From Pseudomonas putida (lineage in GTDB: Bacteria; Pseudomonadota; Gammaproteobacteria; Pseudomonadales; Pseudomonadaceae), in the NCBI GenBank assembly GCA_041879295.1, contig CP047153.1, forward strand, positions 124,001-188,000: a stretch of 64,000 bases of DNA, given 5' to 3'. Of the stretch, positions 2,401-39,759 are shown piece after piece (within the stretch, counting starts at the first letter, position 1; each line of letters begins with the position of its first letter). The notes below the pieces were generated by a model that searched no databases, had not been told where the DNA came from, and worked only from the letters and a program-made list of their open reading frames with translations. The position numbers and the translations under genes were made by a program.

Positions 2401-2444
2401 TGTGAAGCATCCCCTTGGAGCAAGTTAACTTTCAGGGGGCCATC
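2401..2444 (+). promoter_or_regulatory. SD-hairpin leader of 2445 gene
   Basis: TGTGAAGCATCCCCTTG, loop GCAAGTTAAC, then CAGGGGG as the SD. CCCC(T)TG at 2411-2417 can pair with CAGGGG at 2433-2438, hiding the ribosome-binding site. Confidence 0.6.
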
Positions 2445-2768
2445 ATGCTTCTCGCAATCAACGATCCTGCAGTTCAATCCGCTTTGATAAATGCATTTGC
2501 AGCTGTCACCAGTACTGTCCTGGCTGCTGCCTCGGCCGCTCTGATCGGAAAGAAATTTTCGGACCGAAAAAAACTGGAGCAGTCCTTGGAGCTGTGTCAG
2601 AAGGACGTCGAATTCTTACTCCAGGTGGAGGCAGAGCATGTCGAGCTCCACAAGGAGCGGGGTGACAAATCCAACAAGCTGAAGGTCCGTGAGAGAGTTA
2701 GGGATCTCGGCTTCTCGTTCTCAGGCAAATTCACACCAGGTCGGCTGCGGCAGGCCCGGCAGAGCTGA
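2445..2768 (+). CDS. Small membrane-anchored protein with coiled coil
   Basis: 107 aa. The ATG at 2445 is chosen over an in-frame TTG at 2415 because CAGGGGG sits 6 bases upstream. An N-terminal hydrophobic segment (about residues 12-34) is followed by a charged, probably helical region (FSDRKKLEQSLELCQKDVEF) and a basic tail, FTPGRLRQARQS. The layout suggests a single-pass protein with a cytoplasmic coiled coil. I recall similar short proteins in phages and plasmids but cannot name a family. Single-gene unit with an SD-hairpin leader and a terminator. Confidence 0.7.
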   Translation: MLLAINDPAVQSALINAFAAVTSTVLAAASAALIGKKFSDRKKLEQSLELCQKDVEFLLQVEAEHVELHKERGDKSNKLKVRERVRDLGFSFSGKFTPGRLRQARQS

Positions 2769-2793
2769 TCGAGATGTGTCCACCCATCAACCC

Positions 2794-2817
2794 AGCCAGG
2801 CTATGCCTGGCTTTTTT
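2794..2817 (+). terminator. Rho-independent terminator
   Basis: GCCAGGC / GCCTGGC stem with a T run; directly followed by GTGCCTGCCGATTACAG, a spacer sequence also seen after other terminators here. Confidence 0.85.
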
Positions 2818-2838
2818 GTGCCTGCCGATTACAGACCC

Positions 2839-2926
2839 GCGTTACGCATCTCCAGGGGCTAGGTCTACCGCAAGAAGGCCTATGGGATTTCTCAACGACC
2901 GCCCCAGGTCCTTTCAGGAGTAACAG
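2839..2926 (+). promoter_or_regulatory. SD-hairpin-type leader of 2927 gene
   Basis: GCGTTACGCATCTCC at 2839-2853, a longer than usual interior, then CTTTCAGGAG at 2911-2920. CTCC can pair with the GGAG of the SD. Confidence 0.5.
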
Positions 2927-3196
2927 ATGTCCAAAACGCACAAAAAACCTTGGTGGAGCCCGATCGCTCACTTCGGAGCCCATGGCTTCGTCGGTACTAT
3001 CATCTTCTTGATCATCATGGTGCCAGCAGTCTTGCTCAACCATTTGGTCCAATACTTGGCTAAGTTTGGGATAAGCGATTTCACCTTGCTAATTCTCGGG
3101 CTTCTCGAACATGCCATTGTGCTTGTAGATGCTGGTCTTTTCTTCGTCTTTATTTGCATTGGGGCAGCCCGGGCAATCAAGGAGTTTGCTGAATGA
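2927..3196 (+). CDS. Small membrane protein, two transmembrane segments
   Basis: 89 aa, ATG at 2927 with AGGAG 7 bases upstream. Two hydrophobic stretches (about residues 20-42 and 52-78) with charged ends predict a hairpin membrane protein. No family recognised. Its TGA overlaps the ATG of the next gene (ATGA), so the two are translated together. The partner is a paralogue of the 52-aa protein at 2184, which suggests the small protein acts with a membrane component. Confidence 0.72.
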   Translation: MSKTHKKPWWSPIAHFGAHGFVGTIIFLIIMVPAVLLNHLVQYLAKFGISDFTLLILGLLEHAIVLVDAGLFFVFICIGAARAIKEFAE

Positions 3197-3351
3197 ATCA
3201 ATCATTTGGGTCTGAGTTCGCTAACGCTGCAAGGCAGGCACCACGAATCTTCTTCGCGCCATTGATGGGGGCTGTAGCTGCCATCAAAGATGAGTTCAGG
3301 CGCGTGAAGTACGGTGCAGACCAAAACAGCAAGCCGCTGCAATCCAAATAA
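3193..3351 (+). CDS. Small 52-aa orphan protein, paralogue of 2184-2342
   Basis: 52 aa, exactly the length of its paralogue at 2184. It keeps SEFANAARQAPRIFFAPLMG and an AIKDE motif, while the first residues and the C-terminal tail differ. It starts inside the stop of the preceding membrane-protein gene (ATGA). Conservation of the central block, with divergence at both ends, argues for selection on that block. Function unknown. Confidence 0.75.
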   Translation: MNQSFGSEFANAARQAPRIFFAPLMGAVAAIKDEFRRVKYGADQNSKPLQSK

Positions 3352-3389
3352 ACGCTCAGCAGAGCTACCTATAAAGTAACGCTAAATCC

Positions 3390-3421
3390 GACCCACCATC
3401 CTAGATGGTGGGTCTTTTTTT
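3390..3421 (+). terminator. Rho-independent terminator
   Basis: GACCCACCAT / ATGGTGGGTC 10-bp perfect stem followed by seven T; preceded by TAACGCTAAATCC. Confidence 0.9.
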
Positions 3422-3512
3422 GGTTCTGATTTTCGGTGCCGCCGTGTCCTCCCAGGCGCTGCTTGCGGGCAATGAGCGGCAAGAGGCTGGCAGATTTGCA
3501 CCGACTCTATAG

Positions 3513-3537
3513 CCGTATGCGTACGCGTTATGTATTC
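3513..3537 (+). promoter_or_regulatory. TACGYGTTATG box upstream of 3579 gene
   Basis: CCGTATGCGTACGCGTTATG continuing TATTC. One of about 17 copies of a partly palindromic operator-like box; a CTATAG -10-like hexamer lies just upstream. Confidence 0.6.
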
Positions 3538-3578
3538 TTGTACCTGGTAATTTCTTGGAACCGATAGGAGCGTTCAAT

Positions 3579-4311: not shown

Positions 4312-4375
4312 TGCCACCTCTCGCCAGTCAAATCGTACTACCTGTTCTGTATCCAACCCAACCTGAGGAACCGCT

Positions 4376-4624: not shown

Positions 4625-4644
4625 GCCTGTCCTGGTCGATGGCC

Positions 4645-4755: not shown

Positions 4756-4772
4756 AAATCTAGGAGCTTGAG

Positions 4773-10814: not shown

Positions 10815-11609
10815 ATGACTGCGAAACGACCATTGCTTTTGTCTCTGTCAGGGGTGCTCTCACTGTCCCTGGTCTCAGCCGACTCGTTCAGTTTAAATCT
10901 TGTGCCAGACCCTCCTTCGAGCGAACTGCCTACGTACCTGGCTGCATCCGCGGGGGCCCTTTTCCTCCTCGGTGCTTGGTACTGGTTCAACCGGTCCAGA
11001 ACCACGGCACAAGTGGCAGAACTGCGGATCCAGCGCCAGCTTCAGGCGCTTGAGAAACTGGAGACCCAGGTTGGCCGAGCGGAACAAGTACTGTCCTTGA
11101 AGTGTGAATACATGACGCACCAGGTGCGCACTGAGCTTCAAGATGCCCTGTACGCCATCACTACAGACACCATCCGGAACATGGGTGGGCTGCGCCGGCG
11201 GGAACTCATGACCGACAAGCAGTTCCGCAAATTGATGGCGCGGTCTGATGAGTTTTTCAAAAGCCTGGAGAAAGCGCAGGCCAGTGAGGTCACGATAAAT
11301 CTGGACGATGATGTGCCACTACTCATGCCAGATCGGGGCAATCCTCTACCAAAGCCGGTACCTCAAAAGCGTCCTGATGCCCCCCTGACACTTCAAGCTC
11401 CTACGGCAACTGCGGCAGCGAGTATCCCGATTCCGGTGAAGCCGCGGCCGAAGGGCGCCAATGCTGACGCAGGGGAGTCGGATGGGGTGCCGGCACTGGC
11501 GGTTACGTCAGCTCTCGTTCTGGGTGGTGGTCTGCTCTCCAGCAATGGGCTGTTCCTGGGTGATGATGATGCCCAAGAGTCAGATCAGAACGACTCCCTG
11601 GATGATTGA
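10815..11609 (+). CDS. Membrane-anchored coiled-coil protein
   Basis: 264 aa. ATG at 10815 is preceded by TTGGAGCCCGAT; an upstream in-frame ATG lies inside the operator. A signal-like N-terminus (about residues 5-22) is followed by a transmembrane segment (TYLAASAGALFLLGAWYWF, about 41-59), a long helical and probably coiled-coil region (about 65-160), a Pro-rich linker and an acidic tail with a Gly-rich hydrophobic patch. Family not recognised. First gene of the operon with the double-HTH regulator. Confidence 0.65.
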   Translation: MTAKRPLLLSLSGVLSLSLVSADSFSLNLVPDPPSSELPTYLAASAGALFLLGAWYWFNRSRTTAQVAELRIQRQLQALEKLETQVGRAEQVLSLKCEYMTHQVRTELQDALYAITTDTIRNMGGLRRRELMTDKQFRKLMARSDEFFKSLEKAQASEVTINLDDDVPLLMPDRGNPLPKPVPQKRPDAPLTLQAPTATAAASIPIPVKPRPKGANADAGESDGVPALAVTSALVLGGGLLSSNGLFLGDDDAQESDQNDSLDD

Positions 11610-11614
11610 GGCTT

Positions 11615-12256
11615 ATGGATACCTCCACGTCCGCACCTGGCATCGAAGTATCGGCTGTCAGGCGCATCGCTGACTCCAGCATGCAGGGCATTACCCGGGA
11701 CAACCGCCCATCGAAGCCTTCTGATGCCGGCTGGCGCGTTCGACTGATGAAGGATGGGAAGTTTGTCGCCGATCGCCATTTTCGCGACTTGGCCTACCAC
11801 GGCCGTTCCCGCGCAAAGCGAGCAGCGCAATGCTATCGCGACGACATGGCCACTGAGCACCAGATCCAGTTCACCCAAACCGTGCACACTGATCTTGCCC
11901 TCCAGCGCCATGCAGCAGGCCTGACTCAGGCAGCTATAGCCTCGATGCTGTCCGTGTCACCCGGGCTGGTATCGAAATGGGAGAAAGGGGGCCATATACC
12001 GGCTGCAGCTCGATCGCTCTTCCAAGCTGCAGTGCAAGGTGAGCTGGTCGGCGACGCACCGAGCCTGGCCGGTGCAGACATCAGGCGCATCAGGGCCGAG
12101 GTTCTAGGGTGGACACAAACACAACTGGCCGATGCACTGGGATGGGCGTACGCCGCAGTAGGCTATTGGGAAAGAGGGCAGCGGCGGATTCCAGGTTGGG
12201 TCCAGGTGTACATGCAGGCGATCGATGAGGGCCGTGTCAGTGGCAAGCAGTATTGA
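11615..12256 (+). CDS. Double Cro/XRE-type helix-turn-helix regulator
   Basis: 213 aa from ATG at 11615; a TTG at 11606 overlapping the preceding stop is an alternative. Two HTH_3-type domains are visible: LTQAAIASMLSVSPGLVSKW at about residues 100-125 and WTQTQLADALGWAYAAVGYW at about 160-185. The N-terminus (GWRVRLMKDGKFVADRHFRD) looks like a small beta-rich DNA-binding module such as an AP2-type or integrase arm domain. Two HTHs in one chain fit recognition of an inverted repeat. The operon is preceded by the most symmetrical TACGYGTTATG dyad, so this is my best candidate for the factor that reads the box. Confidence 0.75.
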   Translation: MDTSTSAPGIEVSAVRRIADSSMQGITRDNRPSKPSDAGWRVRLMKDGKFVADRHFRDLAYHGRSRAKRAAQCYRDDMATEHQIQFTQTVHTDLALQRHAAGLTQAAIASMLSVSPGLVSKWEKGGHIPAAARSLFQAAVQGELVGDAPSLAGADIRRIRAEVLGWTQTQLADALGWAYAAVGYWERGQRRIPGWVQVYMQAIDEGRVSGKQY

Positions 12257-13659: not shown

Positions 13660-13663
13660 GGCG

Positions 13664-13712
13664 GTGCCCTCCTGAAGGGTCAGAAATCGTTGAACTTGCT
13701 AAGAGAGATGAC
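13664..13712 (-). promoter_or_regulatory. SD-hairpin-type leader of the ParB-like gene
   Basis: Minus strand: GTCAGTCATCTCTC, AGCAAGTTCAACG, then CCTTCAGGAGGG before ATG 13659. The loop and SD context match the family, but pairing of CATCTCTC with the SD is weak in this copy. Confidence 0.4.
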
Positions 13713-13753
13713 TGACACCTGCGCATAACCCAGATTTGCCGACACCAGCCATT

Positions 13754-15161: not shown

Positions 15162-15165
15162 GAGT

Positions 15166-15200
15166 CATCTCCTGGTGGGTTGAACTTGCACCAGGAGATG
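15166..15200 (-). promoter_or_regulatory. Perfect SD-sequestering hairpin, type example of the leader family
   Basis: Arms CATCTCCTGGTG and CACCAGGAGATG are 12-bp perfect complements around an 11-base loop that reads CAAGTTCAACC on the minus strand. The SD (AGGAG) lies in the 3' arm, 5 bases before the ATG at 15161. Confidence 0.75.
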
Positions 15201-15220
15201 AAGAGCAGAGTTCTGTAATT

Positions 15221-15866: not shown

Positions 15867-15926
15867 ACTACAATACAGGTCCGTGTGCGTCATTACAGAT
15901 AGTTATGAAACTACTGTGGTGAACGT

Positions 15927-19375: not shown

Positions 19376-19417
19376 TTGAAAGCAAATCAATAGAAATATA
19401 CATACGTGTTATGGATT
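19376..19417 (+). promoter_or_regulatory. Promoter with TACGYGTTATG box
   Basis: TTGAAA at 19376-19381, TATACA at 19397-19402 (15-bp spacer), then TACGTGTTATGGATTG from 19403. The SD-hairpin leader of the same gene lies about 55 bases downstream, showing that box and leader are separate elements. Confidence 0.65.
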
Positions 19418-19460
19418 GTTGAGTGCTCTTGGAAAGGGCCGCGATTGTTTTGCATGCCTG

Positions 19461-19522
19461 TGTTGCGCATCTCCCGTCACCAGGTCTTCGCAAGAGACCG
19501 TCATTCCCTGTGGAGAAACGTC
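19461..19522 (+). promoter_or_regulatory. SD-hairpin leader of 19523 gene
   Basis: TGTTGCGCATCTCC; TCTCC (19470-19474) can pair with GGAGA at 19512-19516. An inner hairpin GGTCT / AGACC lies between. Confidence 0.65.
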
Positions 19523-19921
19523 ATGCTGCAAATCCCTAAAGCGCTGCTCGAAAAACGCATCACCAAAGAAACCCTTCACCGCTCTGGCAAGCGATTGCTC
19601 AAAGAGATCGCCGGCCGTTTGAAGCTTCCAGAAACGAGCTACGAAATTCGGTCGTGTAAAGGCGGGAACGCAGTCATGGGGGAGGTGATCCTGCACAGCG
19701 ATCATCTCTATCTGATGGTTCATCTAGGTTCAGATCGAGTGCTCAAAGTGCTCTACCGATCCTGTGAGGGCCGAAAGGACTATTCAGGCGGAATGAACCG
19801 TTATGAGTCGGTCTCTGAGTTGGCCAGCACCACTGCGGCTGAGCGATTCATCGCAAAACTGGACACCCTTAATGAGCTGGGCAAGCGCCAGCAACAGCAA
19901 CAGCACAACCAAGCCGCTTGA
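19523..19921 (+). CDS. Hypothetical basic protein
   Basis: 132 aa. ATG at 19523 with TGGAG upstream. Basic N-terminal half (ALLEKRITKETLHRSGKRLL), predicted helix then beta hairpins, Gln-rich C-terminus (RQQQQQHNQ). No family recognised. It pairs with the next gene 13 bp downstream. Confidence 0.68.
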   Translation: MLQIPKALLEKRITKETLHRSGKRLLKEIAGRLKLPETSYEIRSCKGGNAVMGEVILHSDHLYLMVHLGSDRVLKVLYRSCEGRKDYSGGMNRYESVSELASTTAAERFIAKLDTLNELGKRQQQQQHNQAA

Positions 19922-19934
19922 TCGAGAGGTTCCT

Positions 19935-20234
19935 ATGTCTTCAGTTCTGAAGGAATTCCCGGAAGCCTTTGCCACCCGCATCAACAAGATTCTGGAAATG
20001 CCTGATCCGGTTCCTGGAAATCGCGAGAATGGCTGGTTCGCTGGATACGGGTGCCGATGGTGCAAGTTTTCGAAAGCTTGGTTCACCGTCTTGCCGTTTG
20101 AAATGCAGCCGGTAGCCGAAACTGTGGCGAGTATGTTCAAGAATGCAGGACTGCAAGATGTGACCATCACTCTTGAAGCCGGCGTGACGCAGGCTGAAGG
20201 AGGCAAGGGTTACCAGGTCTCTGCTCGAATCTAA
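19935..20234 (+). CDS. Hypothetical protein with CRWC motif
   Basis: 99 aa. ATG at 19935 after GAGAGGTTCCT. Contains GYGCRWCKFSKAWF, a CxxC that could be redox-active or bind metal, followed by a beta-alpha-beta-like C-terminal half. Family not recognised; ends at a terminator. Confidence 0.65.
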   Translation: MSSVLKEFPEAFATRINKILEMPDPVPGNRENGWFAGYGCRWCKFSKAWFTVLPFEMQPVAETVASMFKNAGLQDVTITLEAGVTQAEGGKGYQVSARI

Positions 20235-20244
20235 ACCGCTGTAC

Positions 20245-20273
20245 CGCCGCTCCCTATGGGGCGGCTTTTTTTT
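20245..20273 (+). terminator. Rho-independent terminator
   Basis: GCCGCTCC / GGGGCGGC stem plus eight T, followed by GCCTGTCGTTACAG. Confidence 0.88.
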
Positions 20274-20290
20274 GCCTGTCGTTACAGCTG

Positions 20291-20339
20291 GCTGTGCTTC
20301 ATCTCAGACCAAGATGACTACCCAAAGAGGCGCAGCACC
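20291..20339 (+). promoter_or_regulatory. SD-hairpin-type leader of 20340 gene
   Basis: GCTGTGCTTCATCTCAGACCAAGATG in two parts: CATCT (20300-20304) pairs with AGATG (20312-20316). Here the stem ends before the SD AGAGG, so sequestration is not direct. Confidence 0.45.
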
Positions 20340-21194: not shown

Positions 21195-21202
21195 CGCTAC
21201 GC

Positions 21203-21231
21203 AACCGCTCCCTAACCGGAGCGGTTTTTTT
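21203..21231 (+). terminator. Rho-independent terminator
   Basis: ACCGCTCC / GGAGCGGT stem plus seven T; preceded by TTAACGCTACGCA. Confidence 0.88.
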
Positions 21232-21261
21232 ATGCCCAGGCGCCGGCCGGCGTTGTAGGTC

Positions 21262-21309
21262 GCTGTGATGCATCCCAATGCATACGACCAACCTCTCTGG
21301 AGATTGCCC
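21262..21309 (+). promoter_or_regulatory. SD-hairpin-type leader of 21310 gene
   Basis: GCTGTGATGCATCCC, ACGACCAAC, then CTCTGGAGA. Sequence matches the family; pairing is short (CCA/TGG). Confidence 0.45.
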
Positions 21310-22002
21310 ATGGCAAGCAAACTAGCACGCGCGGTACCACCCACCATCAAGCCACTGGCAGAAGCACTGTGTGATGGCCACCGGTATCCGCCGGCGGAGA
21401 TGTTTCGATTTTTCCTAGGGGCAGTGATGGAGCTTTGGGGGTTTCAGCCCTGGTATCCCATACCTGATGATGTCCGCGGTAAAATAGGACGAGTTATCAC
21501 GCTGTACGATCAGGCGGTGGCCAATGAAGAACCGTTCAAGGACATTTTAGGCCCACTCTACGAAGAGCTGGCCAGCCATGGCGGCAAGCAAATGCTGGGG
21601 CAGTTCTTCACGCCCTGGTCATTGGCAAGCCTGATGGTCAGGATGAGCGATGGTGACATCGACCTGCCTCGCGCCGGTGATCTCAAAGCTTACTCAGATC
21701 CGGCTTGTGGCAGTGGAGTTATGCTGTTGGCAAAAGCAAACTACCTGCTCGAAACGAAAGGTCCTGGGGAGCTCCAGCAATGGCTTTTTCACGCATGCGA
21801 TATCGATGGCATTTGCGCTCGCATGGTTGCGATTCAGCTGGCCGCGAATTGTGCCATTCATAGAGTCGAAATCGGGGAGATCATAGTGCTCCTTGGTGAT
21901 ACGCTCAGCTCGGACCCCAAGCAGCAGATCTTGCACGCAACCTCTCCGACGCTGATGCGTTCACGTCAAAATTCAATTCCGAAACTTGAGGTCGCCTCAT
22001 GA
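21310..22002 (+). CDS. N6-adenine DNA methylase-like protein lacking motif IV
   Basis: 230 aa, ATG at 21310 behind CTGGAGATTGCCC. It shows the HsdM-like region LGQFFTPWSLASLMVRM, the SAM-binding motif I YSDPACGSGVMLLA (about residues 128-141) and a motif II-like HACDIDGICARM. The chain ends about 55 residues later, after IIVLLGDTL, without an (N/D)PP(Y/F) catalytic motif IV. It is far shorter than functional gamma-type methylases. It may bind SAM without methylating, or use a partner. Its stop overlaps the start of a secreted-protein gene. Confidence 0.75.
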   Translation: MASKLARAVPPTIKPLAEALCDGHRYPPAEMFRFFLGAVMELWGFQPWYPIPDDVRGKIGRVITLYDQAVANEEPFKDILGPLYEELASHGGKQMLGQFFTPWSLASLMVRMSDGDIDLPRAGDLKAYSDPACGSGVMLLAKANYLLETKGPGELQQWLFHACDIDGICARMVAIQLAANCAIHRVEIGEIIVLLGDTLSSDPKQQILHATSPTLMRSRQNSIPKLEVAS

Positions 22003-22487
22003 AACGCTGGTACACGATCGCCGCGGCTTTAGCCTTCCAGGTGCTACCGCATGCGGCAAGTGCTTCGGAGGCTTCAGATGCTGTTCTGTCGGTTGCTGCC
22101 TCAAAAATGTCCACCGTAGCTCGCATCAACGGCGCCACACGGCCGGTCATCTACGTGGGTAAATTTGAAGGCTGCGACTCGGTCTCGATTCAAAATGCCC
22201 CCGGGCGCTTTGAGCACTTCCGTGTATGCGGTAACCAGGTCAGTGCTCGCAACACCGTGTCACCCAGTTGGACCGAAGACGATGGCGCCGGGGATGTTCT
22301 CCGCGCAGTGGTCGATAATGCGGTTCTGTTCGGCGCTGCATCGCAAGTGGACCCCAACGGTTACCTGATCGCAGCACGTGCTCTGGGACCTTCCCAGCGC
22401 TCGTGCAGCAACGTGGAGGTCATCTTGAGTTACGAAGGTGACCTGGTCGACAGGGCCTTGAAGAGCATCTGCTCTCATCGCCGTTAA
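21999..22487 (+). CDS. Secreted hypothetical protein
   Basis: 162 aa, start overlapping the preceding stop (ATGA). Sec signal peptide (YTIAAALAFQVLPHAASAS, cleavage near residue 23). The mature domain holds four Cys (GCDS, RVCG, SCSN, SICS) that could form two disulphides in the periplasm. Family not recognised. Confidence 0.68.
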   Translation: MKRWYTIAAALAFQVLPHAASASEASDAVLSVAASKMSTVARINGATRPVIYVGKFEGCDSVSIQNAPGRFEHFRVCGNQVSARNTVSPSWTEDDGAGDVLRAVVDNAVLFGAASQVDPNGYLIAARALGPSQRSCSNVEVILSYEGDLVDRALKSICSHRR

Positions 22488-22496
22488 CCCCCATCA

Positions 22497-22525
22497 AACC
22501 CCGTCCTAGCGACGGGGTTTTCTTT
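22497..22525 (+). terminator. Rho-independent terminator
   Basis: AACCCCGTC / GACGGGGTT stem followed by TTCTTTTT. Confidence 0.88.
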
Positions 22526-22595
22526 TTGGCGTCATTCAGTGGGGCAACGCCGCATTGCGGGGCGTCTCAGTCCTTGGGGTCCTCGGTTCATGTTG

Positions 22596-22644
22596 GCTGT
22601 GATGCATCTCCCTTCACTAGACCAACACACCTGAGGGTATCGCT
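22596..22644 (+). promoter_or_regulatory. SD-hairpin leader of 22645 gene
   Basis: GCTGTGATGCATCTCCC, loop ACTAGACCAAC; CCCT(T)CA at 22610-22616 pairs with TGAGGG (SD) at 22632-22637. Confidence 0.65.
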
Positions 22645-23274
22645 ATGAATTCGTCCAGCACCGCAAAGGCCTATATCGTTGAAACCCGCGCCACCAACGG
22701 CGCAGAAGATACGCCAGAATTTGCATCCTTCAGCATCGATCTGGCTGCAACTCAACGCATCATCAATCTAGCTCGACTGGTTAAAGAGAATGGGCTTCAC
22801 AAAGTGGAGACGTTTGACAGCACTGCTTCATTCCATCAGTACGCTCCTGGCACTGAAGAGGCGGAGGAGATCGGCTGCGACAACGATGTGTTACTGAAGG
22901 CCGGCTGTCTAAATGTGGATGCGTCCAGCTTCTGGTTCTCGGGATTCATCAGACATTCTGACGTCGAGGTTGTCAGCGCACGTCAGCCGATCGCTGAACT
23001 GCAGAGTCACTTCCACTTGGCCGGAGGCACAACTGAACTTGAAGCTGGCGGTGAACGGCAGTATCTCGTTACTTGGAGTGCTGATGTTGAGGTTGAGGGG
23101 GATCACCATGCGGCAGCCCAGGCCGTCGCAGACCGGTACTTCCGCAGCCACATTGCCGCCGGTGAACAGGACAGCGCGTGCACCTTCGTGGTGACCGCAA
23201 AATCTGACCAAAAGCCAGTAGAGATCGATCTCTCGACTTGTCACTCCGGTGAACAAATCTTGGAGTCGGCATGA
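22645..23274 (+). CDS. Hypothetical protein, acidic
   Basis: 209 aa, ATG at 22645. Soluble; beta-strand-rich with two similar-looking halves (KAYIVETRATNGAED near the N-terminus, RQYLVTWSADVEVEGDHHAA after the middle). The second half resembles a small adaptor-like alpha/beta fold. Family not recognised. Single-gene unit with leader and terminator. Confidence 0.65.
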   Translation: MNSSSTAKAYIVETRATNGAEDTPEFASFSIDLAATQRIINLARLVKENGLHKVETFDSTASFHQYAPGTEEAEEIGCDNDVLLKAGCLNVDASSFWFSGFIRHSDVEVVSARQPIAELQSHFHLAGGTTELEAGGERQYLVTWSADVEVEGDHHAAAQAVADRYFRSHIAAGEQDSACTFVVTAKSDQKPVEIDLSTCHSGEQILESA

Positions 23275-23331
23275 CTGCTGCACTTCAGGCTTTAGCGCCA
23301 GCTTGATGCTCGCGCTCCAAACGCTGCACAT

Positions 23332-23359
23332 GACCCGGTCACTAGACCGGGTTTTTTTT
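23332..23359 (+). terminator. Rho-independent terminator
   Basis: ACCCGGTC / GACCGGGT stem plus eight T; preceded by AAACGCTGCACATG. Confidence 0.88.
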
Positions 23360-23402
23360 CGCCTGGGACCAGTGCATGTGGACCGTACCGGGACCTGCCT
23401 GT

Positions 23403-23879
23403 TCAGATCTGTGATTTAGCGGCGGCATAACCATCGAGTGGATATTCAGGCCAGCCGCTGGGAGGACAGAAGCCCTGCCGACGTTCCTGCTCGGCGAACT
23501 TGGCGTGCCACTCGTTGCCCTGATCGAAGACCCAACCTGTAAGCCCGGTATCTGGGAATTGATCATAGGTGAGGTCGATAATGAACCCGTCGACCTCGAA
23601 CCAGGCGTGAGACTGCTCCCTTTTTAGGTTCGGATGGTCTTCAGCCCACACATACACACCATCAGCACCGAGTTGTTCTTTGATGAGTCGACCTAGGATG
23701 TCCGAGGCAGGACCGCAGGTTCCTCGCGGAAAACCATTGAAGGTAGAACCGGGTTTGTCGACAAGAAGCAACAGCCCGCGGCGGGTTGATTCGGCTATTG
23801 CCTCAAGAGCTGCGCGGTCGATCTTCGCTTTTGCTTGCATGGGTTGAGTCTCGAAGGAGGGCAGTGTTCGAGGCCCCAT
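23403..23879 (-). CDS. Papain/transglutaminase-like cysteine hydrolase, putative
   Basis: 158 aa. ATG at 23879 has AAGG at 23889-23892; a later ATG at 23840 lacks an SD. The pattern FPRGTCGPASDILG (Cys55), SHAWFEVDG (His91) and IDLTYDQFPD (Asp102/Asp106) matches a Cys-His-Asp order I associate with small transglutaminase-like proteins that carry RGxCGxAS and SHAW. A cysteine protease, deamidase or amidase activity is possible. Substrate unknown. Stands alone on the minus strand among plus-strand units. Confidence 0.6.
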   Translation of the reverse strand: MGPRTLPSFETQPMQAKAKIDRAALEAIAESTRRGLLLLVDKPGSTFNGFPRGTCGPASDILGRLIKEQLGADGVYVWAEDHPNLKREQSHAWFEVDGFIIDLTYDQFPDTGLTGWVFDQGNEWHAKFAEQERRQGFCPPSGWPEYPLDGYAAAKSQI

Positions 23880-23983
23880 TTTTGGACCTTGATGATACGT
23901 CGTCAATGAGGTGCACCGCCGGCAGTCGGGCTGTACATGATACGATTGTGCCATCCATAAAGTGCGGGCACGGTTGTCGTTTG

Positions 23984-24139
23984 ATGAGTGGGTTGTATCA
24001 GAAATTCAGGAGAGCAATCTGCAGATTGCGCGGCCATCCTGGGCGTATCGTGACACGGGAGTATTCTGGCGAGGTGGTGAGGATCGCCAAGCGATGCCCC
24101 CTCTGCAAAACAGAGAAGATCATCTACCGGTTTCAATGA
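23984..24139 (+). CDS. Possible 51-aa zinc-binding protein
   Basis: 51 aa from ATG at 23984. CRLRGHPGRI followed by KRCPLCKTEK is the layout of small C-H...CxxC proteins found in phages. No clear SD and it lies in a short divergent gap behind the cysteine-hydrolase gene, so it could be chance. Confidence 0.35.
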   Translation: MSGLYQKFRRAICRLRGHPGRIVTREYSGEVVRIAKRCPLCKTEKIIYRFQ

Positions 24140-24218
24140 GCCTGGCGCTCGTTCGCTAGCGTCTACCTCAACATCCCAAGCCATGGGATCTCCTCGATTG
24201 GTGCTGTTCCAGTTGCCT

Positions 24219-24262
24219 GTGATGCATATCCCAGAACTAGACCAACACCTATGGGGAGCACC
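24219..24262 (+). promoter_or_regulatory. SD-hairpin leader of 24263 gene
   Basis: TGTGATGCATATCCCA, loop ACTAGACCAAC, then TGGGGAG. CCCA (24230-24233) pairs with TGGG (24252-24255). Confidence 0.55.
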
Positions 24263-24538
24263 ATGAGCCTTATCATCGAAACTCTGCAGAATCGCGTCAA
24301 TAACGCCACAGGCCCGGAGCGGGAACAGCTGCAGGATGAGCTGAACATTGCGCTGATCAATCATGAAATGGGCGAGCTCCGTCGACTAGAGGGTGGCACA
24401 CGCTACTGCCTCCATACTCGTGAGCATCAGCCTGCACTCAACATGCTTCGACGTGGAATGCGGCGCTGCGACGTGGTCACCCACTACGCCTACAAGGTGC
24501 CTGTTAAGCGCCAGATTGCGGCCGGGAAGGGGTGCTGA
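24263..24538 (+). CDS. Small hypothetical protein, helical
   Basis: 91 aa, ATG at 24263 with GGGGAG upstream. Helical N-terminus (LQNRVNNATGPEREQLQDEL), basic C-terminus with two Cys. Family not recognised. Directly followed by the next gene (1-bp gap), so an operon pair. Confidence 0.62.
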   Translation: MSLIIETLQNRVNNATGPEREQLQDELNIALINHEMGELRRLEGGTRYCLHTREHQPALNMLRRGMRRCDVVTHYAYKVPVKRQIAAGKGC

Positions 24539-24539
24539 A

Positions 24540-24806
24540 ATGGCTGTATCCAAGACTGAGCAGGAAATGCGGGAAACGGTGGCCAGGCGTGGCTTCTGGC
24601 ATGTCACCGGTAAGAGAGCCTTCGACCTGACTAAGCGTTTGGAGGAGCTCGGCAAGCTCGATGGACTGACGGCCAGCTATGGGTGTCACAACGCCAACGG
24701 GGTCTTCTTCAAAAACCAGTGGAACTGCCCTCGGCCGAAGCTGGTTTACGAAGTGGTGGTCCGCGCTTGTGAGCCTGCTATCGCTCCCAGGCCCTCTGTA
24801 TCCTAA
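24540..24806 (+). CDS. Small hypothetical protein
   Basis: 88 aa, ATG at 24540. Basic; HVTGKRAFDLTKRLEELGKL region looks helical and GCHNANGVFFKNQWNCP is Cys/aromatic-rich. Family not recognised. Second gene of a two-gene unit ended by a terminator. Confidence 0.62.
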   Translation: MAVSKTEQEMRETVARRGFWHVTGKRAFDLTKRLEELGKLDGLTASYGCHNANGVFFKNQWNCPRPKLVYEVVVRACEPAIAPRPSVS

Positions 24807-24815
24807 AGCTACACC

Positions 24816-24842
24816 CAACCCGGCCACGTGCCGGGTTTTTTT
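24816..24842 (+). terminator. Rho-independent terminator
   Basis: ACCCGGC / GCCGGGT stem plus T run; preceded by AAAGCTACACCCA. Confidence 0.88.
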
Positions 24843-24895
24843 CGGTGCCCCGGGAGTGTGCCCGATCAGACAAAATTGGTGAGTTTCGTGGTTCA

Positions 24896-24943
24896 TGTGA
24901 CTCATCCCCCTGGACTTGATCAACGTTCTAAGGGGACACACTC
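24896..24943 (+). promoter_or_regulatory. SD-hairpin leader of 24944 gene
   Basis: ATGTGACTCATCCCCCT; CCCCT (24907-24911) pairs with AGGGG (24931-24935), the SD. Confidence 0.65.
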
Positions 24944-25525
24944 ATGCTCGCAACACTTGAACTGACTGATGGAATGATGGTGATGGTCCAGACTGGTCGC
25001 CAGGGGCTGACCGGCATCCGGTGGTCGACCCCATTCGTTGATCGCCTGAACATCGAAACAGATCGTGAGGGAGTCACCTCTGGGCTTTCACTCAAGCAGA
25101 CCAGCTTCGCTGAGTTCGATCCGCGCTATCACCGCGATGGGCGAAATCAGTTTGTCGCGAAGGATCACGCGCTTCGGATCGTGAGCGGTAGCCTGGAAGA
25201 ACACCAGCAACGCTTTGAAGCCACGGTCGACCAGCTCTTAGCTGATGGCACATTGAAACGTAGTGAACTCCCTGCATTTGAAGATCTGCTCACGGCGATG
25301 ACCGCCCTGGCAGCCTCAGAAGAGGTCTGCTTCGACCGGTTTATCGACTTCCACAGATACCGTCGGTTCTCCGACTTCCTGTGTGATTGGCAGGCGGAGA
25401 AAGGGAAAGCTGCAGGGGAGAGAGCATTGGATCTCGCCCACCAAAAGCCGGCCCTCGAAATCGCATTCAGCACGCTTGTTGAGTTCGGGATTTTTGGTGA
25501 GATGGAACCAGCTGGTCGACTGTGA
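24944..25525 (+). CDS. Hypothetical protein
   Basis: 193 aa, ATG at 24944. Soluble; a beta-rich start (VMVQTGRQGLTGIRWSTPFV) and a long helical C-terminal half rich in Phe and Asp (CFDRFIDFHRYRRFSDFLCD). Family not recognised. Its TGA overlaps an unused GTG; the next gene starts 20 bp later. Confidence 0.65.
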   Translation: MLATLELTDGMMVMVQTGRQGLTGIRWSTPFVDRLNIETDREGVTSGLSLKQTSFAEFDPRYHRDGRNQFVAKDHALRIVSGSLEEHQQRFEATVDQLLADGTLKRSELPAFEDLLTAMTALAASEEVCFDRFIDFHRYRRFSDFLCDWQAEKGKAAGERALDLAHQKPALEIAFSTLVEFGIFGEMEPAGRL

Positions 25526-25545
25526 TCACGAAGGGGGATCCATCA

Positions 25546-25728
25546 ATGTCGCATTACCAGGAGCAGAAGGTTGCTGAACTGAAACGCTTGGGCTGGTCTG
25601 AAGTCGGAAAACGTCATCTGCCAGGCCCCGGCCGGACACCAGCGAAGCAGGTGTATGAGCTGTCATGTCTGCAGGGAAAACTTCAGGTCTTCGTCTACCC
25701 GGCGGAACTGATCTACCAGACCGCTTAA
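25546..25728 (+). CDS. Small hypothetical protein
   Basis: 60 aa. ATG at 25546 with AAGGGGGA upstream, preferred over an in-frame GTG at 25522. Compact alpha/beta-like (EQKVAELKRLGWSEVGKRHL, then LQVFVYPAELIY). Family not recognised. Co-transcribed with the preceding gene. Confidence 0.6.
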   Translation: MSHYQEQKVAELKRLGWSEVGKRHLPGPGRTPAKQVYELSCLQGKLQVFVYPAELIYQTA

Positions 25729-25740
25729 CGCTACACCCAC

Positions 25741-25765
25741 GCCCGACCTAGTCGGGCTTTTTTTT
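25741..25765 (+). terminator. Rho-independent terminator
   Basis: GCCCGAC / GTCGGGC stem plus eight T; preceded by TTAACGCTACACCCAC. Confidence 0.9.
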
Positions 25766-25798
25766 GGCCCGCGGCCGAGCTGCTTGCGTGGTGATCGA

Positions 25799-25846
25799 TG
25801 TGCGCCATCTCCACGCACTAGGCCAAAAATCAAAGGAGCAATTCCA
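25799..25846 (+). promoter_or_regulatory. SD-hairpin leader of 25847 gene
   Basis: TGTGCGCCATCTCC, ACTAGGCCAA, then AAAGGAG. CTCC (25809-25812) pairs with GGAG (25835-25838). Confidence 0.55.
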
Positions 25847-26065
25847 ATGACCACCGCAACAACACAGCAGTCAACCCGACCGAAAGCACATGCCCTGTTC
25901 AAGTTGAATTTCTGTCTACGAATGGCAAAGGAAAACTCGCTCTCCGCTCGTACAGAACCGCACCGCTATAGGCCCGAATACCGCCGTATGAGGAGGGAGT
26001 CGATGCAGGATGCCCGTTACTGGCGTGCCCTATGTAGCCGCTTAGATACCTGTTCAGAAGCTTGA
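25847..26065 (+). CDS. Small basic hypothetical protein
   Basis: 72 aa, ATG at 25847. Strongly basic with many Arg and Tyr (RTEPHRYRPEYRRMRRESMQ); could bind nucleic acid. Family not recognised. Confidence 0.55.
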   Translation: MTTATTQQSTRPKAHALFKLNFCLRMAKENSLSARTEPHRYRPEYRRMRRESMQDARYWRALCSRLDTCSEA

Positions 26066-26097
26066 TCGCAATCACAGGCAATGCCCAGGGGGCCACC

Positions 26098-26400
26098 ATG
26101 CTGCAAACCCTTACTGCTGCCCACGGGGCTTCGGTGATCCCAACAGGATTCCACCTAGCACGTGTCGTAGGTGTGAAACCGAAGTTCAAATCTGACCCTG
26201 ACATGCGTGAGGTCGTGTTCTACCAATGCTTCCTCTCCGAATGTCATGGAGCCAACGGTCTTGAGCCTTGCGAGTACCTGGCAGAGCGACGTTACCTGTT
26301 GAGTGCAGCGAAATACATGGTCAATACCGGCCTTTCCACGTGCCCAGTGATCCAAGAGCTGGTGAGGTCGGAGACCGAGGTCAAGTATCTGCCGGCTTAG
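26098..26400 (+). CDS. Small hypothetical protein
   Basis: 100 aa. ATG at 26098 behind CAGGGGGCC, chosen over a TTG at 26062. Three Cys in a compact alpha/beta sequence (FYQCFLSECHGANGLEPCEY). Family not recognised. Second gene of its unit. Confidence 0.6.
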   Translation: MLQTLTAAHGASVIPTGFHLARVVGVKPKFKSDPDMREVVFYQCFLSECHGANGLEPCEYLAERRYLLSAAKYMVNTGLSTCPVIQELVRSETEVKYLPA

Positions 26401-28461: not shown

Positions 28462-28527
28462 GTGTGACGCATTCCTGCGGTACCAGGTCTTCGCAACACC
28501 TGGCTTACCTTTCAGGAGAGTCATGCA
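28462..28527 (+). promoter_or_regulatory. SD-hairpin leader of 28528 gene
   Basis: GTGTGACGCATTCCTG; TCCTG (28473-28477) pairs with CAGGA (28513-28517) of the SD. Inner hairpin CCAGGT / ACCTGG (28483-28488, 28498-28503). Confidence 0.68.
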
Positions 28528-29082: not shown

Positions 29083-29121
29083 CTGCAAAGCATTCCCTCA
29101 GACCAAGATGAGGGTATACAA
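29083..29121 (+). promoter_or_regulatory. Compact SD-hairpin leader of 29122 gene
   Basis: GCAAAGCATTCCCTCA then GACCAAGATGAGGG; CCCTCA (29095-29100) pairs perfectly with TGAGGG (29109-29114), the only possible SD. Shortest member of the family. Confidence 0.7.
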
Positions 29122-30588: not shown

Positions 30589-30591
30589 AGG

Positions 30592-30634
30592 GTCTCTCCT
30601 AGAAAGGCTTTTCATGATGCAAGGAGATGTCCCA
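30592..30634 (-). promoter_or_regulatory. SD-hairpin leader of 30013-30588
   Basis: Minus strand: CTGTGGGACATCTCCTTG ... CTAGGAGAGACC. TCTCCT (minus strand of 30622-30627) pairs with AGGAGA (30595-30600), 6 bp covering the SD. Confidence 0.68.
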
Positions 30635-30661
30635 CAGGCATGTAGAAGGTGGATTGTAGGG

Positions 30662-30715
30662 CTGTGTGGAGCATCCCCTGAAGTCAGTTAAACAACCAAC
30701 TACCTGGTGCCCCTC
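30662..30715 (+). promoter_or_regulatory. Leader of 30716 gene, weak family member
   Basis: GTGTGGAGCATCCCCTG and AACCAAC are present, but no G-rich SD that would pair with CCCC is visible. Confidence 0.35.
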
Positions 30716-31177
30716 ATGAACGATCCAAAAAGCTCCCTACAAGCGGTGGAAAGCCTTCTCAGTGCCGTCAACGCGCACGCCCGAGACCTCAACGACAAAG
30801 TATTACCTCCTGATGGGGATAGCTACAACGAGCTCTTGCACTTGGTCACTGATCAGTTGAATGCGATTTTGGGCGCTGCCCAGGGCATCACTGCTGATCC
30901 TGCACCTGACACAGCGAGCGCTGTAGCTAAAGCGACTCAGGTGTGTGGTTCTCCTGTTGCCATCGTGCTGGATGCCATCGTCGGCCGGCTCTCCCTAGGC
31001 AATCTCCGGTCAATTCTCCAGGCCTATGAGTGCTGCACCCAAGAGCAGCTCAACGGTAACGCAAACTCGCAGCAAATCGCTGGAAAAGCGCTCTCTGCAG
31101 CTATTTTGCGGGGTGTCGAGTCGATGGTCGCAAGTGATCGACAACACCTTGAGCTACTGCTGGCGCCGCAAGCGTGA
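30716..31177 (+). CDS. Hypothetical protein, helical
   Basis: 153 aa from ATG at 30716 (GTG at 30707 is the alternative). Mostly helical, Ala/Leu-rich, with one CC pair (AYECCTQEQL). No signal peptide. Family not recognised. Confidence 0.6.
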   Translation: MNDPKSSLQAVESLLSAVNAHARDLNDKVLPPDGDSYNELLHLVTDQLNAILGAAQGITADPAPDTASAVAKATQVCGSPVAIVLDAIVGRLSLGNLRSILQAYECCTQEQLNGNANSQQIAGKALSAAILRGVESMVASDRQHLELLLAPQA

Positions 31178-32762: not shown

Positions 32763-32806
32763 TGTGTTGCACATCTCCGGTTATACAGCCAACAGGAGAT
32801 TTCCCA
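32763..32806 (+). promoter_or_regulatory. SD-hairpin leader of 32807 gene
   Basis: TGTGTTGCACATCTCC, ACAGCCAAC, AGGAGAT. ATCTCC (32773-32778) pairs perfectly with GGAGAT (32795-32800). Confidence 0.72.
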
Positions 32807-34419: not shown

Positions 34420-34470
34420 GGCGAACTCCTGAAAGTAGTTGAACTTGCCCTCAGGGATGCCACACACGCA
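34420..34470 (-). promoter_or_regulatory. SD-hairpin leader of 33562-34419
   Basis: Minus strand: GTGTGTGGCATCCCTGAGGG, CAAGTTCAAC, TTTCAGGAG. CCTGA (34451-34455) pairs with TCAGG (34428-34432), overlapping the SD. Confidence 0.68.
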
Positions 34471-37675: not shown

Positions 37676-37694
37676 ATGACTGATGAGAGAAAGC

Positions 37695-38156: not shown

Positions 38157-38194
38157 CAGGCTATGAGCGCTCTTAGCTCAAGGCACTTGTCGTT

Positions 38195-38893
38195 CTAATC
38201 AGGTTCACCATAGGCCGGCCTAAGGAACGGCTGCCAATTCTCGGCTCCCTCGATGTCGACGGCCTGGCCCGCAGCGGAAATTTTAAAGCTCAGTTTTCGC
38301 TTATCGGCCACCAGAAGCCCCCTGTTTGCTAGTCCTCGGGCAATGCCAAGCACGACCAGGAGAGGAGGGTAATAACTTTGCCCGATCCATGGCTCAAATG
38401 GGTCCAAGAATTCGTTTGGCTGCTGTTGCCCCTGGTAAAGAATGCGCAGGGCAGTGAGCGACATCGGCTTGCTGGCAGGGTCAATTTTTGGTTTTTGCAT
38501 AGGCAAGCCTTTCAGCACTCTGGCGACCCTCCTGCCATCAGTTGTAAGCCTGACATAAAGAGACATGAGATCGCCCAAACCGATCAGCCGGTGATCCGTG
38601 TTCAGCAAGCCGCGGCTTTCCAGGGAATGCCACGTTGAGCCGGCGCCATGACCGACCAGTTTCATCTCCGCGAGCGCGTACCGTAACGGGCCATCGTACG
38701 TCATTCTTCGGACCCGACCGTCAGGACCATATTCCAGCCACCGCCATTGGCTCGCTGGCGCAGAGCCTGGCCCAGAATTCGCCTGCTCGGCCCGCTGATC
38801 TTCGTCATACGCCACCACGAGGTAGGCACGCTGGCGCTCGTTGAGCGACTCAGCGATCTCGGTTATTCGGGTGATCAGCTTTTCCTGGGCCAT
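38195..38893 (-). CDS. Hypothetical protein, possible winged-helix C-terminus
   Basis: 232 aa, ATG at 38893. Helical N-terminus (ITRITEIAESLNERQRAYLV), a middle with GRVRRMTYDGPLRYA, and a C-terminal segment (LGIARGLANRGLLVADKRKL) followed by an FKIS strand, which resembles a winged helix-turn-helix. DNA binding is a guess. No signal peptide or membrane segment. Confidence 0.55.
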   Translation of the reverse strand: MAQEKLITRITEIAESLNERQRAYLVVAYDEDQRAEQANSGPGSAPASQWRWLEYGPDGRVRRMTYDGPLRYALAEMKLVGHGAGSTWHSLESRGLLNTDHRLIGLGDLMSLYVRLTTDGRRVARVLKGLPMQKPKIDPASKPMSLTALRILYQGQQQPNEFLDPFEPWIGQSYYPPLLVVLGIARGLANRGLLVADKRKLSFKISAAGQAVDIEGAENWQPFLRPAYGEPD

Positions 38894-39032
38894 GATGCTG
38901 CTGAAATTTTGGGCACTTCCTTAACTTAAGCACCGCCGCCGAGCTTTGCCTTGCCGGGCGATCGCCGGCCTGGCCGAACGCGTATACACCACTGAATCAC
39001 AACCACCGTCTCAAACCGGGGCAGCTTTATAG

Positions 39033-39096
39033 CTCGATGCACACCATCTCCGGAGACCAGGTCACCCGCATAGACCTGCTTTTCCAGGAGATCAGT
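39033..39096 (+). promoter_or_regulatory. SD-hairpin leader of 39097 gene
   Basis: GATGCACACCATCTCC; ATCTCC (39046-39051) pairs with GGAGAT (39088-39093). Inner hairpin CAGGTC / GACCTG (39058-39063, 39073-39078). Confidence 0.72.
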
Positions 39097-39360
39097 ATGT
39101 CCAAGCAAATCCAAGCAAATCAAACTGCAGTTCTGGTCGCTGACCGTGAGCAAGGTACGATCCTCGCCGCACTTCGCCACTACCAGGAGTTCCTCCGAAG
39201 TGGGGCGTCAGCTGCTCCGGGCCTGCTTGATATCGCAAGCAATTCCGGTCAGCTCACGCCCCTGTCGACCCAAGAGATCGAAGTGCTGTGCGAGAAAGTA
39301 AATTTCGGGTCGACCCTCAAGGAGCTCGAATCGTTCGTCGCCAACGCAAAAGCTAAGTGA
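39097..39360 (+). CDS. Small hypothetical protein
   Basis: 87 aa, ATG at 39097. VADREQGTILAALRHYQEFL is a helical motif I also associate with small phage/plasmid proteins; the C-terminus has LSTQEIEVLCEKVNFG. Family not named. Overlaps a GTG at the next gene. Confidence 0.65.
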   Translation: MSKQIQANQTAVLVADREQGTILAALRHYQEFLRSGASAAPGLLDIASNSGQLTPLSTQEIEVLCEKVNFGSTLKELESFVANAKAK

Positions 39361-39371
39361 AGGGTGGCGGT

Positions 39372-39620
39372 ATGCATCCGATCATTGAAGCCTCGCGGCT
39401 TATGAAGGGCGCGCAGATCACGCGGAAAGCAGCGGTACATGCCAATGGGGGGACTATCTTCCTCTGGGAGCTCTCAACTGGTGACACCATTGAGACCATA
39501 CGTTCAACCCATGGCTTCAGTTCAACCGCGTTGAAGGCCATCCCCTTTATCGATCGCGTCAATTACTACAGCGCCATGCGTGGCACCAAGGTAACTGGTA
39601 GCTACCAGCTACAAGCTTAG
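39372..39620 (+). CDS. Small hypothetical protein
   Basis: 82 aa from ATG at 39372 (AAGGGTGG upstream; GTG at 39357 overlapping the previous stop is an alternative). Basic, with FLWELSTGDTIETIRSTHGF. Family not recognised. Confidence 0.6.
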   Translation: MHPIIEASRLMKGAQITRKAAVHANGGTIFLWELSTGDTIETIRSTHGFSSTALKAIPFIDRVNYYSAMRGTKVTGSYQLQA

Positions 39621-39633
39621 AAACGCTCCATCC

Positions 39634-39658
39634 AACCCGGCCATGCGCCGGGTTTTTT
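39634..39658 (+). terminator. Rho-independent terminator
   Basis: ACCCGGC / GCCGGGT stem plus six T; preceded by AAACGCTCCATCCAACC. Confidence 0.9.
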
Positions 39659-39676
39659 GATGCGGATTTATAGGCG

Positions 39677-39759
39677 CATGAGGCGCATTCCCCAAGGCAA
39701 GTTCAACGCCTTACGGCAAGACAAGTGCCTTGGCACACCTCACATGAATGGAGCAGGCA
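39677..39759 (+). promoter_or_regulatory. SD-hairpin-type leader of 39760 gene
   Basis: ATGAGGCGCATTCCCC, hairpin AAGGC / GCCTT around AAGTTCAAC (39694-39712). Pairing with the SD itself is not obvious. Confidence 0.45.

Follow-up and report, generated by a model that had tools for sequence, protein, structure and literature searches.

The window analysed here is a stretch of 64,000 nucleotides, positions 124001-188000 of the 222,820-bp plasmid contig C2 of a Pseudomonas putida genome. Scattered over it, mostly upstream of genes without a recognisable protein family, lie copies of a short leader (here called A-type), in which a conserved 5' block is followed by a variable spacer, a loop motif, the Shine-Dalgarno (SD) sequence and a start codon. 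The element is nearly confined to plasmids and joins a conserved DNA block to a loop that is likewise conserved and lies at an almost constant distance from it, with cognate RNA pairing in addition.

In the leader alignment, which is anchored on TGTG as position 0, the 5' block reads TT-N9-TGT-N4-CAT-N2-C. The profiles of 63 non-Burkholderia and 50 Burkholderia representatives show T at -11 and -10, C or T at -4, TGT at 0 to 2, CAT at 7 to 9 and C at 12, a variable stretch at 14 to 17, and then mostly A at 21, G or A at 22 and 23 and AAC at 26 to 28. The loop motif, either RYNAG...AAC or an inner hairpin with a CGCAAG loop, begins at +18 in most copies. Between -42 and -12 of the 63 and 50 aligned sites conservation amounts to at most 0.10 bit per position, and no RpoD -35 element (TTGACA) is conserved there. 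Compared with the RpoD -10 sequence TATAAT, the A motif has an invariant T at -10 and A or C at -9, with no clear TAnnnT.

A weight matrix places 22 sites above 14 bits in the window, 20 of them between 2401 and 39759. The list below gives P, the probability of pairing between arm and SD as predicted from the partition function, with SD and start codon picked automatically; P covers 20 leaders, all except those at 15884..15926 and 30665..30715.

2401..2444, plus strand: A-type leader with the class 1 loop GCAAGTTAAC; P 1.00.
2840..2926, plus strand: A-type leader of class 2; arm:SD pairing not predicted, P 0.01.
13660..13717, minus strand: A-type leader with loop GCAAGTTCAAC and a B-type motif (see below) about 80 bp upstream; P 0.51.
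15162..15207, minus strand: A-type leader with a perfect helix of 11 bp, CATCTCCTGGT/ACCAGGAGATG, around GCAAGTTCAACCC; not named in the earlier, sequence-only reading.
15884..15926, plus strand: A-type site before a small gene (start at ATG 15927 or an upstream GTG), from the weight matrix.
19461..19522, plus strand: A-type leader with the class 2 inner hairpin GGTCTTCGCAAGAGACC and a B-type motif 54 bp upstream; P 0.94.
20293..20339, plus strand: A-type leader with weak pairing; P 0.30.
21264..21309, plus strand: A-type leader of an N6 DNA methylase gene, no arm:SD pairing; P 0.00.
22598..22644, plus strand: A-type leader with loop ACTAGACCAAC; P 0.51.
24218..24262, plus strand: A-type leader with loop ACTAGACCAAC; P 0.99.
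24896..24943, plus strand: A-type leader, CCCCT/AGGGG; P 1.00.
25799..25846, plus strand: A-type leader with loop ACTAGGCCAAA, no arm:SD pairing; P 0.00.
28463..28527, plus strand: A-type leader with the class 2 inner hairpin CCAGGT...ACCTGG; P 1.00.
29084..29121, plus strand: A-type leader, CCCTCA/TGAGGG; P 1.00.
30589..30636, minus strand: A-type leader, TCTCCT/AGGAGA, divergent to 30665..30715; P 0.99.
30665..30715, plus strand: A-type leader from the weight matrix, automatic start wrong.
32765..32806, plus strand: A-type leader, ATCTCC/GGAGAT; P 1.00.
34420..34466, minus strand: A-type leader, CCTGA/TCAGG, with loop GCAAGTTCAAC; P 1.00.
39038..39096, plus strand: A-type leader, ATCTCC/GGAGAT, with inner CAGGTC/GACCTG; P 1.00.
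39679..39759, plus strand: A-type leader with loop GCAAGTTCAAC, no arm:SD pairing; P 0.02.
45318..45374, minus strand: A-type leader, beyond the coordinates of the sequence-only reading; P 1.00.
48432..48477, plus strand: A-type leader of a Toprim-domain (primase-like) gene, no arm:SD pairing; P 0.00.

The sequence-only reading had described about 19 leaders. The recurring order of motif, loop, SD and start is present at the places it gave, and all seven arm/SD pairings that it quoted are found in the sequence; the family is larger, with 33 gene-linked copies on the plasmid. P exceeds 0.5 in 14 of the 20 scored window leaders and in 24 of the 32 scored on the whole plasmid. The poor pairing noted earlier at 20300, 21271, 39686 and 48439 is borne out (P 0.00-0.30), and 2840 and 25799 pair poorly too. 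The description of the genes as mostly orphans holds as well: 18 of the 20 window leader genes that were scanned have no Pfam match, the remaining two encoding the N6 methylase and the Toprim protein. Beyond the window, six leader genes comprise one without a match, a YqaJ exonuclease, a PAPS-reductase-like protein, an AAA_5 ATPase, a DUF3150 protein and a VWA/CobT-like protein that falls below the Pfam cut-off.

With 109 matches at up to 3 mismatches vs. 122.8 expected, the bare consensus shows no enrichment, and its search was dropped in favour of the weight matrix, controlled by the reversed sequence. Because 34 sites of this plasmid served to train the matrix, the other plasmids are the fairer test. 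On this plasmid it finds 40 sites above 16 bits, of which 33 have a start codon behind them and seven, without an automatically found start, were left out, vs. 0 in the reversed sequence; the automatic choice of start is wrong in a few cases (e.g., plasmid position 219424 and window position 30665). At one A-type site without a gene, plasmid position 214172 on the minus strand, the first 16 nt (TGTAAATCATCTCTTA) are nearly unchanged across six plasmids, the remainder diverging. A short RNA is not claimed at this site, as the T run of the terminator-like hairpin belongs to the other strand.

The nearest named relatives of the plasmid are pSTY of Pseudomonas sp. VLB120, which contains exact motif matches, and plasmids of P. 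monteilii, P. putida, P. aeruginosa, Stenotrophomonas rhizophila and others. Type-F transfer genes lie beneath the matches to relative plasmids; most relatives with typing are recorded as conjugative, and several as MOBF and MPF_F. Those compared were pHN39-SIM (W01), pHD6515-VIM (W02), the plasmids of S. rhizophila KC1 (W03), Pseudomonas sp. CFA (W07, minus its last 1,121 bases) and Cupriavidus campinensis (W11), P. koreensis p3 (W05), Burkholderia pBVIE01 (W09) and, in part only, W08 (two parts). Sites above 16 bits, with the gene-linked ones in brackets, number 32 (28) on W01, 30 (25) on W02, 28 (25) on W03, 28 (26) on W05, 35 (29) on W07, 43 (39) on W09 and 4 (4) and 7 (6) on the two parts of W08, vs. 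0 or 1 in the reversed sequences of these relatives. A start codon lies within 200 nt on the same strand for 119 of 128 A sites (53 on the opposite strand). The leaders occur on both strands, 25/8 on this plasmid and 32/19 on W09, and all 246 of them fall into 113 distinct clusters.

A covariance model built from 52 leaders places 38 of its 39 matches in the host genome (E <= 10; 150 of 1191 candidates scored) on plasmid C2. On two Cupriavidus plasmids outside model building it finds 57 and 56 matches at E <= 1. Among six further genomes, three of them picked for having B-type matches, one has model matches, 18 in number and confined to a single contig (in each genome, 150 of 612-1210 candidates were scored). 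The search of other plasmids that the sequence-only reading had proposed thus shows the family on Pseudomonas, Stenotrophomonas and Burkholderia plasmids (25-39 gene-linked copies on six relatives) and on Cupriavidus plasmids. The C. campinensis plasmid differs in replicon type (rep_cluster_332) and relaxase (MOBP) and yet carries 57 leader matches, so that the A-type element is independent of any single replicon family.

The leaders are also retained at orthologous genes. Starting from 35 leader genes, orthologs that have a leader of more than 12 bits in the 150 nt upstream amount to 32 of 32 on W01, 28/31 on W02, 29/32 on W03, 24/27 on W05, 33/34 on W07, 11/16 on W09 and 5/5 and 6/8 on the parts of W08, and 1.1-1.4% of random 160-nt stretches of W01, W05 and W09 reach this cut-off. 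On W09 the leaders persist at orthologs with 39-62% protein identity. In 29 pairs between this plasmid and W01, positions 0-2, 7-9 and 12 differ in 0%, +18 to +24 in 0-10%, the spacer in 17-31% and -30 to -12 in 24-55%; as the pairs needed more than 14 bits (matrix -12..+13) and leader similarity, their selection biases the comparison towards the core; the loop, which lies outside the matrix, gains no such advantage over the flank.

The pairing between arm and SD was assessed by swapping arms (+6..+17) among leaders of the same plasmid and computing their pairing with the 26-nt segment up to and including the start codon, using one representative per cluster (112 of 113; the start of the remaining one lies beyond 95 nt). 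The native energy averages -8.41 kcal vs. -7.15 kcal after swapping (z -6.4, 0/5000). By segment, +12..+18 gives z -6.7, the core at +7..+13 z -2.9 and the control segment +0..+8 z -1.1. The arm effect appears on single plasmids, with z -4.0 for the 33 leaders of this plasmid, -4.5 for 32 on W05 and -3.3 for 50 on W09. It is repeated on W11, which entered neither matrix nor model: with 43 of its 47 leaders, the arm gives z -3.7 (3/10000), +12..+18 z -4.5 (0/10000), the core z -0.4 and the control z -1.7 (500/10000). The class 2 inner hairpin, typically AGGYCUUCGCAAGRGRCC, is likewise cognate by swaps (z -6.15, 0/10000, 25 representatives; on W11 z -3.1, 7/10000, nine leaders).

The partition function points in the same direction. 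Arm:SD pairing exceeds 0.5 in 72 of the 112 representatives, and the mean predicted fraction of unpaired SD is 0.246 in native leaders, 0.316 with swapped arms, 0.346 with shuffled arms and 0.445 in leaders of the B type (44 scored), exposure being lower in native leaders than with swapped arms (Wilcoxon p 7e-5). In addition, GGRRAT, an SD followed by AT that fits CATYY, occurs in 36 of 100 leaders vs. 12 of 97 other genes, and C at 11 is associated with GGGG or GGGA in the SD (Fisher p 0.013).

Several results weigh against a common regulated hairpin. The core alone is weak, with z -1.1 on W09 in addition to the values above. Rank-based tests yield a smaller arm effect (z -4.2 overall, -1.5 on W09, -2.0 on W11), which means that some of it comes from a minority of exceptionally strong hairpins, and 40 of the 112 representatives stay below a P of 0.5. 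RNAalifold finds zero pairs in a MAFFT alignment, made without structure, of 52 of the 55 listed class 1 leaders. In a single fixed register 61.8% of cells pair vs. 59.7% in shuffles and 35-52% with a slid partner, double-sided changes affect 24 cells vs. 17.4 in shuffles, and the covariation score is matched by 16 of 500 shuffles. Among orthologs, 12 stem changes keep pairing and 64 break it, a count that favours breaks, the reference being the best pairer; for this bias it was replaced by a chimera test. There, 35 of 82 ortholog pairs favour the native combination, 17 the chimera and 30 neither, and per cluster (26) the result, 11 native vs. six chimera, is not significant (p 0.13). Finally, no trans-acting factor was found in the searches described below.

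Helix length and register vary between leaders, the most constant part being C12C13 with the GG of the SD, plus the spacer. For roughly two in three leaders, a predicted RNA structure that hides the SD has support, because cognate arms outperform swapped ones and do so again on an independent plasmid. The sequence-only reading had taken the CATCYCC arm to covary with the SD and saw in this strong evidence for structure. The swap tests support covariation for C12C13 plus spacer against the SD and the preceding bases; it is weak or absent in the CATCYCC core, which that wording overstates. RNAalifold shows no common helix, and among the orthologous leaders covariation is not significant. The view of TGTGNNGCATCYCC as an RNA arm survives only in part: the 5' portion of this motif shares its register with the B motif, which has no hairpin, the core hardly covaries with the SD, and a similar 5' block and loop begin a long structured RNA without a found gene.

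The B motif emerged when a first matrix (-45..+13) drifted into a second motif family, which was then kept apart. Its consensus is TTATNNNTACGYGTTATGTATC, also given as TTATNNNTACG|YGTTATGTATC, and it contains the dyad AT-N3-TA-N5-TA-N3-AT, with little conservation past +14 and no hairpin arm. The A and B motifs share one register, with T at -10, T at -4, GT at 1-2 and AT at 8-9. There are 42 B sites on this plasmid and 67 on W09 (reversed controls 3 and 7), and the motif is also found on Burkholderia and Cupriavidus plasmids; the exact B-type pattern has 0 matches in viral contigs. Genome-wide, 24 of 25 matches with up to 2 mismatches fall on C2. A start codon lies within 200 nt on the same strand for 94 of 114 B sites (66 on the opposite strand), and a B site lies 15-150 bp upstream of 18 of the 246 A leaders, in tandem before one gene. 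We read both motifs as putative plasmid-specific promoter/operator motifs. In the window, the B-type sites are as follows.

19396..19417, plus strand: B-type motif (position 0 at 19407) upstream of the A-type leader at 19461.
3526, 4745, 7724, 8665, 10766, 31295, 55343, 56295 and 63787, plus strand: position 0 of B-type motifs.
13797, 46348, 49624 and 55272, minus strand: position 0 of B-type motifs.

The search for a trans-acting factor covered CsrA, ProQ and the RNA families of Rfam. The genome contains three CsrA genes, all on chromosome C1 and none on the plasmid, and the ProQ family is likewise confined to C1 in this genome, with no member in W01, W03, W05 or W09. Rfam gives no match at gathering score in the window and four sub-threshold matches at 19400-26100, none of them on a leader. 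Some conserved plasmid proteins have helix-turn-helix domains. One example, encoded at 11606-12256 on the plus strand of the window, is a protein of 216 amino acids with two helix-turn-helix matches, kept on Burkholderia (47%) and Cupriavidus (44%) plasmids; it may be a candidate reader of the DNA motifs and is mentioned as a lead only.

Outside the window, at plasmid positions 30600-31148 on the minus strand, an A block and loop motif (TGTTGAACATCACC-N4-GCAAAGTTAAC) stand at the start of a long structured RNA, and the automatic rule finds no gene behind this start at 31148. This stretch of 540-605 nt has matches in 21 plasmid records from Pseudomonas, Cupriavidus, Burkholderia and Caballeronia; in 18 of these records the match spans 80% of the query or more, in that of P. 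kurunegalensis 23% only. On 20 of the 21 plasmids the collection, which lists no RNA genes, shows no protein gene beneath it. The phage collection contains no match, and Rfam contains none at gathering score, with mir-549 (E 0.058) and SorX (E 0.57) as weak hits below it. Six homologues fold jointly at -133 kcal vs. -77 (sd 5.7) in 40 column shuffles (z -9.7), and 32 of 142 pairs changed on both sides vs. a mean of 9.7 and a maximum of 17 in shuffles. The 5' block is recognisable in the six aligned copies, being weak in P. veronii (11.1 bits). The longest stop-free sense stretch is 63 amino acids in four Pseudomonas copies and 112 and 122 in two others; a coding role appears unlikely.

Complementarity between the long RNA and the leaders is suggestive at most. 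The best complement to the loop motif GCAAGTTCAAC is 7 nt long (GTTGAAC) and lies inside the first nucleotides of the RNA itself. Complements of 7, 8 and 9 nt occur in 30, 13 and 7 of 33 leaders vs. 22.8 (sd 2.4), 8.7 (2.7) and 2.4 (1.6) in shuffles, which did not keep dinucleotides, the whole RNA including its own leader being used. The long RNA may merit a study of its own.

Taken together, the leaders may be copies of one composite expression element that joins a promoter block, an SD-hiding hairpin and a loop for a common factor, a reading to which we give about an even chance. The plasmid-specific promoter/operator block TT-N9-TGT-N4-CAT would start transcription at about position 0 to +3, and the first approximately 60 nt of the RNA would fold so that C12C13 and the variable spacer pair with the SD and its immediate 5' neighbours, which would close the loop whose motif starts at +18 in most copies. 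In about two thirds of the copies, where the statistically supported pairing lowers the predicted exposure of the SD, translation would be attenuated by default. A common trans-acting factor, protein or RNA and probably made by the plasmid, would set translation or stability jointly at the loop; such a factor is most simply inferred because the loop is conserved at a nearly fixed distance. The shared signal opening the hairpins that the sequence-only reading had envisaged is plausible on the same ground, the fixed position of the loop motif. A wider version, which we consider possible though doubtful, is a two-layer plasmid expression system in which A and B promoters (approximately 60-110 sites per plasmid) combine with a hairpin and loop read by one plasmid-encoded factor that would translate or silence 25-39 or more messages as a block, together with the long structured RNA, itself a product of the A-type element. 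These messages would include the recombination (YqaJ), CobS/CobT/DUF3150-like and primase-like genes, and block control might operate, e.g., on entry into a new cell, a link to plasmid establishment that we infer.

If the element were mainly a plasmid promoter/operator, with the hairpin as an unregulated translational attenuator that limits the cost of expression, no RNA trans factor would be needed. The shared register with the hairpin-free B motif, the near restriction of both motifs to C2, the weak covariation of the core and the tandem arrangement of A and B all fit this explanation, which nevertheless leaves the loop motif at +18, the near-invariance of the loop between orthologs and the cognate inner hairpin unexplained; we hold it to be rather unlikely. 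Less probable still is that 5' block and loop form an RNA tag for stability, processing or localisation, with SD pairing secondary. The similar start of the structured RNA without a found gene, and the third of leaders unpaired with the SD, would suit a tag, whereas spacer and SD flank match beyond chance, which a pure tag would not need.

SD-sequestering hairpins are also the hallmark of RNA thermometers, and a thermometer or another ligand-free switch was considered. From 15 to 42 C, however, the mean predicted SD exposure stays flat (0.243-0.250) as the mean folding energy goes up from -27 to -14 kcal, and the conserved loop sequence is not required by thermometers, which makes this explanation very improbable. 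Scarcely credible, in turn, are dispersed repeats, recently copied and kept by descent rather than use: many copies per plasmid would be expected of them, but the ortholog flanks have diverged around unchanged core positions (with the selection of pairs favouring the core), leaders persist at the distant W09 orthologs, and the 246 leaders form 113 distinct clusters.

The presence of dozens of copies of one short control element on large plasmids of soil and water bacteria suggests that many genes are controlled jointly at the RNA level. Plasmid gene control has mostly been described at the promoter level. If true, the leaders would constitute a plasmid-wide post-transcriptional regulon across Pseudomonas, Stenotrophomonas, Burkholderia and Cupriavidus plasmids, from which one could learn when the numerous orphan genes of such plasmids are expressed. 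The A motif could help to mark transcription units on plasmids with mostly "hypothetical" genes, and whether plasmids possess translational control of their own becomes a directly testable question. Among the titles and abstract openings found in the open-access literature, none describes such leaders or the long structured RNA. The available text of the study of pTTS12 does not contain the words "untranslated" or "noncoding" (PMC9537497), and the replicons named in the accessible part of a start-site study of C. metallidurans CH34 are the chromosome, the chromid, pMOL30 and pMOL28 (PMC9045368).

Among known systems, CsrA/RsmA regulons resemble the proposed arrangement in that numerous leaders are controlled near the SD by a single trans factor. 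That a regulator of this kind can reside on a Pseudomonas plasmid is shown by RsmQ of pQBR103, a plasmid-encoded protein of the CsrA/RsmA type (PMC9928087). By contrast, seven of 114 GGA cases here fall in a predicted hairpin loop, 27 of 112 leaders contain AnGGA, and the genome's CsrA homologues are chromosomal. Frpo elements are described as adopting a fold in which -35 and -10 imitate double-stranded DNA, and the same paper places the gene groups that it names in the leading region solely on the T-strand (PMC11541004). Frpo and ssi elements, single-strand promoters of plasmid leading regions, share with the A-type leaders that they are repeated, promoter-like elements of conjugative plasmids before genes of mostly unknown function, whereas the A-type leaders lack a conserved -35 and occupy both strands. 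KorB of IncP plasmids is a global plasmid repressor, a plasmid-encoded DNA-binding protein with many sites before plasmid genes. KorB is also named in the text available for pTTS12 (PMC9537497). Repressors of this type could serve as a model for the B-type motif, the difference being the RNA layer added here. Phage coat or repressor hairpins consist of a conserved loop and an SD-containing stem bound by one protein and control one or few genes. The A-type leaders share the conserved loop and the stem that includes the SD, but they number 25-39 gene-linked copies per plasmid.

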